From a virus, in IMG/VR virus record IMGVR_UViG_3300047550_004649, positions 1-49,559 of that record: a DNA stretch of 49,559 nt; one strand, 5' to 3'. The notes beneath the pieces were generated by a model. That model made no database searches. It had not been told where the DNA came from and was given only the letters and a program-made list of their open reading frames with translations. Position numbers and translations under genes: made by a program. Shown in pieces: positions 466-47,554 of the stretch. Position 1 is the first letter of the stretch; each line of letters begins with the position of its first letter.

Positions 466-1347
466 TCACAATCGTTGATATAAATCTTCCATAGAAATTT
501 TTTGGGGAATACCATTCTCATCCAATATTTCTATCATGGTATCTCCACTTAAGCACTCAAACTCAACTTTGAACTGTTGTTCGGATGTGTTTGCGATTGT
601 CTGCTCCTTCCAGGCAGCGTCTCTACCAGGCACTTCAGACCAATGGACATCTGTTGGCACATATTCATTCTTGCCCCTCTCAGCATCATGCCACATGCGG
701 TAGAAGTGATTCATACCGCGTGGTGTAGAAACTATGATGACCTTTGTGCTCTGTCCAGAAGAAATAGTAGGATAAACAGAGGCAAAGAAGTCATCAGCAA
801 TGTGATTCGGGATGAAAGCGAACTCGTCAAGAAAGATGACATTATAGGATCCGCCTCGGACAGCAGATGACGAAGTAGAGTTAGATGAAATTTTGGAGCC
901 ATTTTCTAGTTCCAGAGATCCTTTGTTCCACGATATAATTCCCTGTTGCATCCACTTGGGTAGATTCTCATAAGCAAGTTGTAATCTCCCAAGCAAATCC
1001 CTTGCAGTAGATGCTTTGTTCGCTAGGATGGCAATATTAACATTATCATTAAAGACGGCATAGTGGAGCAGGTAGGATACGCAGGTAGTGCTTTTTCCCG
1101 TCTGACGGGGCATCTTACAGATATTAAATCTGTTCTCGTGGAAGTTCTTTACAAGTTTCTCTTGAAATGGATACATCTCAAAAGGAACCAGACCATGATC
1201 CAAAGAAACAATCTTAATATAATTCTTTGCGAAATATACAGGATCCTCTTTACACTTTAAGAACTCAATAATTTGTTCTTCCGTAAATTGAATTTGTGTA
1301 TTTGCTTTCTTAAGGTTTGGATTTCCCAAATATACATTATCTGCCAT
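466..1347 (-). CDS. 17: Large terminase (gp17) N-terminal ATPase half fused to an intein N-fragment
   Basis: Residues 1-264 are the ATPase half of the T4 gp17-type packaging motor. Visible are Walker A RQTGKST (81-87), Walker B IFLDEF (171-176) and the coupling motif STPRGM (207-212). The T4 protein continues FEC-EFLG into its nuclease domain. Here the frame instead changes after EFE (264) into Cys265 and 28 more residues, C-LSGDTMIEI to EDLYQRL, then stops. That tail is an intein N-terminal splicing block (see separate entry). The RNase H-like nuclease domain is absent from the window and should be encoded left of base 1. An AGAGG ribosome site precedes the ATG. It follows gp16 and three other virion genes, the T4 order. 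Recognition of the terminase is certain; splicing is inferred. Confidence 0.95.
   Translation of the reverse strand: MADNVYLGNPNLKKANTQIQFTEEQIIEFLKCKEDPVYFAKNYIKIVSLDHGLVPFEMYPFQEKLVKNFHENRFNICKMPRQTGKSTTCVSYLLHYAVFNDNVNIAILANKASTARDLLGRLQLAYENLPKWMQQGIISWNKGSLELENGSKISSNSTSSSAVRGGSYNVIFLDEFAFIPNHIADDFFASVYPTISSGQSTKVIIVSTPRGMNHFYRMWHDAERGKNEYVPTDVHWSEVPGRDAAWKEQTIANTSEQQFKVEFECLSGDTMIEILDENGIPQKISMEDLYQRL
469..555 (-). other. Split-intein N-fragment (IntN), 29 residues, AceL-TerL-like
   Basis: Residues 265-293 of the terminase fragment. Cys265 is the expected nucleophile of intein block A. The pattern C-x-x-GDTM-hydrophobic-E is typical of block A. The ending EDLYQRL closely resembles the end of the 25-residue N-fragment of the AceL-TerL intein known from an Antarctic lake phage metagenome (recalled, not searched). 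The insertion falls between Glu264 and what is a conserved Cys in T4-like terminases (FEC motif), so the C-extein would begin with the Cys needed for splicing. Most split inteins break near residue 100; this one breaks right after block A. Confidence 0.85.
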
Positions 1348-35440: not shown

Positions 35441-36091
35441 TTATATATGAGTATTATGAGAGATTTTGTGCCACCTGGTATTTTCTGACAGTTTCTTCCT
35501 GTATTCACCGTCTCTCTCCCATGAATTCATATTTTCAAATCTTGTTGTCCACTTTAAATTATCTTTGCAATTGTTTTGTTTATTTCGATCTATATGATCT
35601 ATCTCAGTATAGTTATTTGGATTTGGTATAAAAGTTTCTGCAACTAATTGATGAACACTTCTCTTGATTTGTTTTAAAAATTTTCCTTTTTCATCATACA
35701 ATGAAATATTAACACATTGATATTGGTACTTTTTACTCTTTGACGATCCTCGATATGCCGGTTTTAAGTAAATTAATCCATATTCGTTGATTTCACCGTA
35801 AAAACCCGTTCTATCATATTTTCCTGGTTTTCTATAAACTTTACCATCTTCAGTAACATAGTAACCAGTATATTGTGTTTCTTTCATATTGTCTGGGATT
35901 TTTATTGGTGGATAATTATATTTCACTTTTTTTGATTTTTTTATAGGGACATTCCAATCTTCTCTTGGTTTTTTTATGTAATTCCATTTCCCATTTTTCT
36001 TGATAAACTGATATCCTTTCTTATTTGTTCTAATTGTTCCTTCTGGATATTCTTTCATTTTTTTATTTTTTATATAAAGGTATTCTATCAT
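35441..36091 (-). CDS. HNH homing endonuclease (216 aa)
   Basis: The C-terminal half carries the HNH signature: VHQLVAETFIPNPNNYTEIDHI (His-Asp pair), then DRNKQNNCKDNLKWTT (Asn) and ending in a short helix. The N-terminal part (EYPEGTIRTNKKGYQFIKKNGK, and YTGYYVTEDGKVYRK, a NUMOD4-like hairpin) probably sets DNA specificity. Such genes are free-standing mobile elements in T-even and cyanophage genomes. It lies at the border between the late, A+T-rich virion block and the G+C-richer small-gene region. The downstream neighbour ORFs look intact, so no gene is obviously split by it. ATGs at 36091 and 36058 are both possible starts. Confidence 0.88.
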   Translation of the reverse strand: MIEYLYIKNKKMKEYPEGTIRTNKKGYQFIKKNGKWNYIKKPREDWNVPIKKSKKVKYNYPPIKIPDNMKETQYTGYYVTEDGKVYRKPGKYDRTGFYGEINEYGLIYLKPAYRGSSKSKKYQYQCVNISLYDEKGKFLKQIKRSVHQLVAETFIPNPNNYTEIDHIDRNKQNNCKDNLKWTTRFENMNSWERDGEYRKKLSENTRWHKISHNTHI

Positions 36092-45357: not shown

Positions 45358-45633
45358 TCAATAATGAAAACCTTCGGTCATTGCCCAATCATAAAGAATG
45401 GACTCAAGTTTTTGAAGAGAACCTGTGTACTCTTCATTTGCAATGTTTAGATACCAAGTGCCAAACTTGTCATCCCACAAAGAAATAGTCAGAAATCCAT
45501 CACCATAAGCATCATCCAATGATTCGGGGAGAGATTTGGATTTCTGTAGATTGTCAGGATACACATAGAAGACATCATCATTCTGAGAATCTTCAATGCG
45601 AACTGAGGAAAGTTGGAAGGAGTGAAAAGACAT
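45358..45633 (-). CDS. Uncharacterised protein (91 aa), first gene of a four-gene operon
   Basis: Reads MSFHSFQLSSVRIEDSQNDD, with strands VFYVYPDNLQ, FLTISLWDDKFGTWYLNIAN and a C-terminal helix (LQKLESILYDWAMTEGFHY). The layout is a small alpha/beta domain. Leader AAACCACACAATG with a GGGGC/GCCCC pair upstream, the same module as in the small-gene region. Family not recognised. Confidence 0.7.
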   Translation of the reverse strand: MSFHSFQLSSVRIEDSQNDDVFYVYPDNLQKSKSLPESLDDAYGDGFLTISLWDDKFGTWYLNIANEEYTGSLQKLESILYDWAMTEGFHY

Positions 45634-45703: not shown

Positions 45704-46648
45704 TTAATCAAGTGTCATACGGATCTGCTGAGCAATGCGTTTGATGACTGGTACACTGACTGAGTTTCCAACCTGCTTATACAATGTCCCATCAGAAATT
45801 GATGGTAGAACATAAGAATCGGGAAATCCTTGAAGACGAAGACATTCTCTTGGTGTAAGTTTACGAATTCCATGAGAATCTTTAATAATTGGAACATTAT
45901 GTCCTCCTGTTCCCATGTTTGCAGTGAGAGTTGGACAAACATTCTTTTTGTTTTCTCTCACATATTGCCTTCGCCATTGATAGATTTTTGAGGGATCAGT
46001 TACATCATTTTTAAGTTTATCATACAATGGTTTTCCATCGTAATAGTACTTAGAATCAACTTGTTCTGAGTCTAGAAGATCCGAAACTGTTTTTGTCAAT
46101 GGAATTGAGTTTGGAAAAGAAAAACGCATACATTGAGAAAAAGATTTAAATCCAACGATGTAAATTCTCTCACGATTTTGTGGTACATTACCATATTCCA
46201 TCGTATTCAAAACTTTAAATTTGATATGGTAATCCAGTTCAGAAAGAATATTTTGAATCACTTGAAATGTTTTTCCAGAATCATGAGAAACTAGATTTTT
46301 TACATTTTCAAGTAAAAATCCAGATGGTTGTTTTTGTTTTAAAATTTCCGCAATGTAAAAGAATAGATTGCCTCGATTCTTTTCATCATCAAATCCTTGT
46401 CGATGACCAGCGATTGAAAATGCCTGACAAGGAAATCCTCCAAGAAGAAAATCAAAGTCAGGCAATGAATTTGGATCAATTTCACGAAGATCTTGAATGT
46501 GAAGTTTAGAGGTTTTGAAATTTAAATCATAGGTGATTTTACACTGTGGTTCAAAGTCATTCGAAAACACAGACTCAAATCCAGCAGACTCAAATCCAAG
46601 ACGAATACCTCCAATTCCAGCAAACAGATCTATCGTGCGATTTACCAT
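45704..46648 (-). CDS. DNA (cytosine-5)-methyltransferase, probable GCNGC-type modification enzyme
   Basis: All key C5-MTase motifs are visible: I DLFAGIGGIRLGF (7-19, AdoMet), IV GGFPCQAFS with catalytic Cys74, VI LLENVKNL (Glu114), VIII QNRERIYIVGF (157-167), IX KLTPRECLRLQGFPD (263-277) and X KQVGNSVSVP. The target-recognition region (~170-260) contains YQWRRQYVRENKKNVCPTLT then ANMGTGGHNVP, which resembles that of GCNGC methyltransferases such as M.Bsp6I as I recall it. The ATG lies inside the last codons of the endonuclease gene (ATGGTAA overlap), so the two are translated together. With its partner it makes a type II restriction-modification system. Confidence 0.95.
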   Translation of the reverse strand: MVNRTIDLFAGIGGIRLGFESAGFESVFSNDFEPQCKITYDLNFKTSKLHIQDLREIDPNSLPDFDFLLGGFPCQAFSIAGHRQGFDDEKNRGNLFFYIAEILKQKQPSGFLLENVKNLVSHDSGKTFQVIQNILSELDYHIKFKVLNTMEYGNVPQNRERIYIVGFKSFSQCMRFSFPNSIPLTKTVSDLLDSEQVDSKYYYDGKPLYDKLKNDVTDPSKIYQWRRQYVRENKKNVCPTLTANMGTGGHNVPIIKDSHGIRKLTPRECLRLQGFPDSYVLPSISDGTLYKQVGNSVSVPVIKRIAQQIRMTLD

Positions 46649-47268
46649 AGTTTAATTTCTTTTTCTGTGGCAGACAGTCCAGAAGGACGAATAACTTCTT
46701 CCATTATATCACTATCTTCGTCAATTTCAAATGGGTTAATTCCATTTGGAACAATTACTTGACTTTTCAAATGAATACGAGGACGATAACCAAGTTCTTG
46801 AGATTCGCGCAATGTGCGATTATTCTTTACATTGCACTCATAAATCAAATGATTTGGAATTTCATAAATGTTGAAAGTACCATCAATGTTCCCATCATTA
46901 TAAAAATCAAGAAAATAGAAAATGTCCCATTTTGATTTTGGACCAAAAGAAGTCAGATCATCCTTAACAGAACTTCCCTTGACTTGGATTGCTTTTTGAG
47001 ATGCAAGATCAAAACAATCAAAGGACGAACTTTTTAATTTCTTTGATTTGTAGAACCTGACAGAATTTGTAACAATACAAAGACAAGTTTCTGAAATACA
47101 TTCAGGAAGATTTGGTGACCTTCCATGAAGAATGTTAGAAACATTTCTCAAATCAATCCAAGAATTAAATGCTTTTTTGACATTTGGGATGTCAGTATAA
47201 TCATACTGAATTACTTCAAAAACACTTGATTCACCGTAAACATCTGCAGTGATCGTTTGAATTTTCAT
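46642..47268 (-). CDS. Type II restriction endonuclease, Bsp6I-like (208 aa)
   Basis: The segment FDCFDLASQKAIQVKGSSVK is a PD-(D/E)XK-type site (Asp84/87 and Q-V-K 95-97). The following DDLTSFGPKSKWDIFYFLDF, then NDGNIDGTFNIYEIPNHLIY, is characteristic of the Bsp6I family as I remember it (recognition GC^NGC). A companion C5-MTase of matching type follows directly, overlapping by 7 bases. Gene order is R then M with no controller gene. TATAAT stands 24 nt before the ATG. The family call is from memory; a more general endonuclease assignment is safe. Confidence 0.78.
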   Translation of the reverse strand: MKIQTITADVYGESSVFEVIQYDYTDIPNVKKAFNSWIDLRNVSNILHGRSPNLPECISETCLCIVTNSVRFYKSKKLKSSSFDCFDLASQKAIQVKGSSVKDDLTSFGPKSKWDIFYFLDFYNDGNIDGTFNIYEIPNHLIYECNVKNNRTLRESQELGYRPRIHLKSQVIVPNGINPFEIDEDSDIMEEVIRPSGLSATEKEIKLW

Positions 47269-47291
47269 AATGAAGAGAACTCTACTTCTAT

Positions 47292-47297
47292 ATTATA
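47292..47297 (-). promoter_or_regulatory. -10 box TATAAT ahead of the R-M genes
   Basis: Minus strand CCCTTATAATATAG, 24 nt before the endonuclease ATG, in the 70-bp gap after the upstream CTS gene. No good -35 hexamer at 17 bp. Confidence 0.5.
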
Positions 47298-47338
47298 AGG
47301 GTATTGTAGGCGATTATGGAAGGGGTTGTGACAGTTCT

Positions 47339-47554
47339 TCAGGTGTCCTTCTTGGGTTGGGTTTTGGTTCTTCTTTCTTTACCCTTTGATCTCATGGTAC
47401 GGGATGGTGTACGATCAATGGACTTATTTGCAACATCCTTATCCATCATAACATAAGATCCCTGTGCTTGCCCTTCTTTTGGGGTAAATCCACCATGTGC
47501 GTTGGGAACTCTCATTCTTCTTGCTTCTTCTAAAAACTCTGGGAATGTCTTCAT
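47339..47554 (-). CDS. Small basic protein with capsid-targeting N-terminus (71 aa)
   Basis: MKTFPEFLEEARRMRVPNAH begins with the T4 capsid-targeting pattern (MKTYQEFIAEA in T4). If cut by the gp21 protease after LEE/A, the mature part is a Lys/Arg-rich, disordered chain ending RTKTQPKKDT. This is what small internal head proteins look like: injected with the DNA, some inhibit host enzymes. The start overlaps the previous stop (TGATG). Confidence 0.7.
   Translation of the reverse strand: MKTFPEFLEEARRMRVPNAHGGFTPKEGQAQGSYVMMDKDVANKSIDRTPSRTMRSKGKERRTKTQPKKDT

Follow-up and report, generated by a model that had tools for sequence, protein, structure and literature searches.

An intact Bsp6I-family restriction-modification gene pair in a T4-like cyanophage

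Restriction-modification (R-M) systems are usually described as cellular immunity or as selfish cargo. What, then, is a restriction endonuclease gene doing beside a DNA methyltransferase gene in the genome of a lytic phage: does the pair form a working R-M unit, and if so, whose DNA would it cut? We addressed this question in a 49,559-bp virus contig (IMG/VR record IMGVR_UViG_3300047550_004649, the whole of which is referred to here as the window), where a first-pass annotation, made from the letters of the sequence, had proposed a complete Bsp6I-like pair specific for GCNGC in a T4-like cyanophage. Searches of an open-access library turned up no cyanophage for which such a pair had been described.

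The identity proposed for the carrier was borne out. The contig encodes a T4-type large terminase, the tail sheath stabiliser gp15 and the baseplate proteins gp6 and gp25, and it shares synteny with Synechococcus phage S-SRM01 (Kyanoviridae, Serangoonvirus, from a Singapore reservoir), which has been described as a lytic freshwater phage (PMC8557907). By gene content and synteny, the contig is a fragment of a T4-like Kyanoviridae genome, nearest to the freshwater cyanophage S-SRM01, and its host is taken by relationship to be a cyanobacterium. The large terminase ORF near the contig end (window positions 466–1347) stops after 293 aa, which covers the T4-type N-terminal part, compared to ~570 aa for terL of S-SRM01, possibly owing to an intron, a split gene or truncation. 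An HNH endonuclease ORF (35441–36091) lies in a variable region adjoining the baseplate genes. Intergenic regions on the minus strand also carry a dispersed element resembling ACTG(T/G)CACAA (positions 47334, 43876, 43724, 43474, 42667 and 42460), with eight matches in the window against 1.4 expected; it precedes small genes here, in S-SRM01 and in L002, an IMG/VR contig from another metagenome, and behind some copies lie a hairpin-like stretch and a TATAMT box. The element probably serves the phage as a promoter or a regulatory module.

Both ORFs of the pair run from an ATG to a stop codon, with the endonuclease first in order (Table 1), and in the window and L002 alike the endonuclease gene adjoins the DNA methyltransferase gene, which is the layout of a type II R-M system. 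The overlap of the endonuclease stop with the methyltransferase start suggests that the two genes may be translationally coupled. The endonuclease gene contains, in its 3' end and ~55 nt ahead of the methyltransferase start codon, a promoter-like TTGAAA-16-TATAAT site, whose level of match was reached in 2.9% of synonymous shuffles of this gene; this hints at a possible separate promoter for the methyltransferase.

Table 1 Features of the R-M locus, in window coordinates
Feature	Position	Strand	Basis
91-aa gene accompanying the pair in both R-M contigs	45358..45633	-	93% identical in L002
C5-cytosine DNA methyltransferase gene, endonuclease partner, 314 aa	45704..46648	-	PF00145, TIGR00675, M.HhaI
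Target-recognition core KIYQWRRQYVRENKKNVCPTLTANMGTGGHNVPI (34 residues)	45887..45988	-	Core comparison
GFPCQAFS motif with catalytic cysteine	46415..46438	-	G-F-P-C invariant in alignment
7-nt overlap ATGGTAA, endonuclease stop/methyltransferase start	46642..46648	-	Sequence; same in L002
Bsp6I-family type II restriction endonuclease gene, 208 aa	46642..47268	-	PF09504, PADLOC REase_II, L002 copy
Promoter-like TTGAAA-16-TATAAT, TG before second box	46703..46730	-	11/12 matches; identical in L002
Q95-V96-K97, (E/Q)-X-K element of predicted active site	46978..46986	-	Alignment
D84	47017-47019	-	Predicted active site; invariant
E60 (helix)	47089-47091	-	Predicted active site; invariant
73-bp leader with TTATAATA, directly upstream of endonuclease	47282..47354	-	Alignment and BLASTN

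The leader listed in Table 1 precedes the endonuclease in both the window and L002, and precedes gp169 in S-SRM01, where the place of the R-M pair is taken by gp169, gp170 and gp171, the last an HNH endonuclease. As the leader is common to these phages and gp169–gp171 stand in its wake in S-SRM01, this part of the genome is variable, and either the present viruses gained the pair or the S-SRM01 line lost it. Neither PF00145 nor PF09504 found a match in the whole 240,842-bp S-SRM01 genome. L002 has the same pair in the same place (~92% protein identity for each protein); in both contigs genes of 91, 56 and 127 aa come next, and in L002 phage genes flank the pair on either side. The 91-aa gene had no match in the 66–101 kb stretch of S-SRM01, nor in 50,697 phage records, and neither its product nor the neighbouring 127-aa product matched a controller protein. 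A search for signatures of mobility at the cassette revealed no integrase and no convincing flanking repeats. Coming from one virus contig, the pair could conceivably be an assembly artefact or host contamination rather than phage DNA, but the recovery of the same genes between phage flanks in L002, and the match of leader and flanks to S-SRM01, make this explanation highly improbable, and we rejected both a chimeric contig and contamination on these grounds.

Between the window and L002, dN/dS was 0.10–0.14 for the endonuclease and 0.07–0.13 for the methyltransferase, much like two neighbouring phage genes. Such low values imply that selection preserves the function of the endonuclease, and on this basis we rejected the idea of a passenger in decay. 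The claim of a complete R-M pair is therefore upheld by two intact ORFs, by the profiles, trees, synteny and selection, and by the independent copy in L002. Judged from sequence, the pair is an intact homologue of a genuine R-M family; purifying selection has maintained it in both viruses, and it occupies a variable slot of the genome.

The endonuclease matches PF09504 (RE_Bsp6I) at 68.5 bits (cut-off 25, E = 7.7e-19), with residues 10–172 spanning positions 10–169 of the 179 in the profile, and PADLOC REase_II with an E-value of 3e-23. The description of the 208-aa protein as Bsp6I-like thus stands, and the caveat attached to it, that the protein might match no restriction enzyme, falls away. 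Across 31 homologues E60, D84 and K97 are invariant, whilst position 95, two residues ahead of K97, holds Glu in Bacillota and Gln in the phage (Q95) and all DPANN members; from this conservation, E60, D84, Q95 and K97 are predicted to form the active site. The first-pass annotation had considered all expected motifs to be present and had named missing catalytic residues as grounds for doubt: the catalytic D84 and K97 are indeed there in the alignment, but the acidic residue of the PD-(D/E)XK motif is replaced by Gln. This substitution could weaken catalysis, yet it is common to all the DPANN homologues. The TnsA nuclease has an E-D-QxK set, so the Gln alone need not imply an inactive enzyme; a literature search for E-D-QxK in TnsA found no report. 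An AlphaFold2 model of the endonuclease was confident (mean pLDDT of 87); a Foldseek search with this model gave no significant PDB match (the top hit was EcoRV at E = 0.21, in a weak list consisting mostly of PD-(D/E)XK nucleases) and a PDB sequence search gave no match. As Foldseek returned no confident PDB match, the fold is assigned from the family.

The partner protein is a C5-cytosine methyltransferase, matching PF00145 (313 bits, E = 3e-93) and the NCBIfam model TIGR00675 dcm (343 bits), with M.HhaI as the best solved structure (E = 5e-62); its GFPC, ENV and QNRERI motifs are invariant in the alignment, as expected of PF00145 members. It is 55–56% identical to the methyltransferases adjoining plasmid Bsp6I endonucleases, and a methyltransferase of the same YQWRR type lies near almost every Bsp6I-family endonuclease locus retrieved from bacteria, archaea, plasmids and viruses. 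The recognition core is up to 88% identical to those of methyltransferases paired with Bsp6I endonucleases, but also 79–85% identical to those of the Pasteurella phage Pmp10 and Oenococcus phage phiS11 methyltransferases beside NgoFVII-like nucleases, and 82% identical to that of a Helicobacter prophage enzyme adjoining a PDDEXK_5 protein. Bsp6I recognises GCNGC and NgoFVII recognises GCSGC. The specificity first proposed, GCNGC, is therefore plausible from the core common to Bsp6I partners, but this core also occurs in methyltransferases paired with NgoFVII-like nucleases; the target is probably GCNGC or a close relative.

GCNGC occurs 53 times in the window against 47.2 expected, or about one candidate site per kilobase, and avoidance of the site as a footprint of restriction was thus not seen in the window as a whole. 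If GCNGC is the right site, this means that the phage must methylate its own DNA. In 35 kb aligned with S-SRM01, there were 26 GCNGC sites in the window and 38 in S-SRM01, whilst the counts of other GC-rich NN-N-NN palindromes were nearly equal; relative to S-SRM01 the window had lost 14 sites and gained seven, a difference which was not significant (sign test, p ~0.19). In the blocks of L002 aligned to S-SRM01 the counts were four and 13, respectively. The deficit relative to S-SRM01 is suggestive, and could reflect deamination of methylated cytosines, avoidance or chance.

Where the pair came from is addressed by its relatives. The endonuclease tree places the phage protein beside DPANN archaea (support 100/99) and apart from plasmid and gut Bacillota systems, and the methyltransferase tree gives the same arrangement (85 SH-aLRT); as both trees put the phage pair by DPANN, they agree with transfer as a unit. 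On the endonuclease tree the phage stands at the tip of a very long branch (4.5 changes per site), and the Bsp6I family was present in 8 of 371 genomes (~2%) in a sample of the phylum to which one of these DPANN archaea belongs. Bsp6I R-M systems of Woesearchaeota, Pacearchaeota and Nanoarchaeota (L013–L019) are the nearest kin of both phage proteins, with 30–40% identity in the endonuclease, ~60% in the methyltransferase outside the TRD and the QxK active site in common, however in these archaea the two genes often lie on different strands or with kilobases between them, whilst those of the phage overlap. Plasmid-borne Bsp6I systems (Bacillus, Lactococcus, Enterococcus) resemble the phage in endonuclease family, in the endonuclease-then-methyltransferase order and in the recognition core, but their endonucleases share 26–33% identity with that of the phage, which differs by the Q for E in its active site and by a C-terminal extension of ~25 residues, and their genes lie ~100 bp apart rather than overlapping.

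Among viruses, the Blautia phage NatCom_2932 and four viral contigs (L073–L076) similarly carry a Bsp6I endonuclease with a C5 methyltransferase. These carriers are neither T4-like nor cyanophages, the Blautia phage being temperate with an integrase, and their endonucleases group with gut Bacillota, as do the methyltransferases of the viral contigs. In the Blautia phage (L080:2154–3776) the Bsp6I-family endonuclease is unannotated ("hypothetical protein") and adjoins an annotated DNA methyltransferase, and Oenococcus phage phiS11 (L078:2492–5495) encodes a Vsr-type endonuclease, a C5 methyltransferase and an NgoFVII-like restriction endonuclease. The two next-nearest viral relatives carry C5 methyltransferases related to that of the phage (L006:618–1526 and L007:3998–4933); these enzymes have lost part of the recognition core (QWRW or QWRF, no GTGGHN) and are accompanied by no Bsp6I-family endonuclease in the stretch examined, which makes them candidates for a change of specificity following endonuclease loss. 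The T4-like phage RB16 likewise encodes a C5 methyltransferase (~41% identity), with no restriction endonuclease annotated beside it. None of the 58 matches in a genome scan of limited sensitivity was a cyanobacterial Bsp6I relative.

We consider it likely, with a probability of roughly 0.6, that the pair is a working type II R-M unit of a lytic T4-like cyanophage which cuts unmarked host or rival DNA; its activity, site, timing and main target we infer. As phage DNA replicates, the methyltransferase would mark its cytosines at the site common to both enzymes, most likely GCNGC, and as progeny DNA would be marked in any cell expressing the enzyme, both packaged and newly injected genomes would already be protected. 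A premarked incoming genome would ease the need to make the methyltransferase first, and the internal promoter-like site may provide extra methyltransferase. The endonuclease would be synthesised during infection, or may arrive with the virion, and would then cut the unmarked host chromosome and the DNA of rival phages or plasmids. Breakdown of host DNA would release nucleotides and silence the genes of the host, a role also put forward for the chlorovirus enzymes. One point against this reading is that further nucleases able to degrade host DNA are common in T4-like phages. Chloroviruses (e.g. PBCV-1 with CviAII) are, like the cyanophage, lytic dsDNA viruses with adjacent R and M genes; their endonucleases are packaged and are thought to bring about the degradation of host DNA within minutes (PMC7019647). 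However, they infect eukaryotic algae and belong to another virus lineage, and the mutual exclusion seen between chloroviruses is not explained by their endonucleases (PMC7019647), which counts against the present reading. The use of R-M against rivals has been proposed for jumbo phages (PMC7824862), and an archaeal virus carries a modification-dependent endonuclease gene (PMC10101028). A more far-reaching version is tentative and rather doubtful: that a lytic T4-like cyanophage lineage uses R-M offensively, premarking its own genome and shredding unmarked host and rival DNA in the manner of chloroviruses, with a DPANN-related E-D-QxK variant of the enzyme.

The roles first suggested for the pair (exclusion of rivals, degradation of host DNA for nucleotides, parasitism by a selfish R-M unit) look alike at the level of sequence. 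Two other explanations accept the pair as phage DNA. The R-M unit may be selfish cargo of a variable slot, persisting as siblings without it are cut in mixed infections and bringing the phage no other benefit; the pair does sit behind a common leader where S-SRM01 has an HNH endonuclease, Bsp6I pairs do occur on plasmids, and post-segregational killing is among the things that type II R-M can bring about (PMC11324026). The retention of the pair at orthologous places under purifying selection in two viruses, at a cassette with neither an integrase nor convincing flanking repeats, argues against this and we regard it as unlikely, although it overlaps with the main reading, as the cutting of unmarked rivals would benefit the phage too. 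Alternatively, the methyltransferase may only shield the phage DNA from a host enzyme that recognises the same site, with the endonuclease a passenger or inactive through Q95. Lone protection of this kind would fit the frequency of C5 methyltransferases in phages, the presence of such enzymes without a Bsp6I-family endonuclease in RB16, L006 and L007, and the deviation of Q95 from the D/E-X-K pattern, but a dead passenger would not be expected to show the dN/dS found for the endonuclease with its catalytic D, K and E kept, and the genome scan, within its sensitivity, offered no cyanobacterial relative from which protection would be needed. We therefore hold protection alone to be distinctly unlikely, and return to a working R-M unit as the preferred reading.

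The first-pass annotation had regarded a paired endonuclease and methyltransferase as unusual in a lytic phage, which agrees with the lone methyltransferase of the T4-like RB16 but must be set against the Bsp6I pairs of the temperate Blautia phage and the viral contigs. As such pairs are already found there and on plasmids, the novelty lies in the carrier and the lineage. An obligately lytic bacterial virus that has both genes of the system, with selection acting on them, would make the old question of offensive viral restriction enzymes testable, aided by S-SRM01 as a cultured close relative without the pair. R-M systems are reportedly scarce in picocyanobacteria (PMC8262939), and an offensive role for the pair, if true, would bear on the recycling of host DNA and on exclusion between phages in these hosts.
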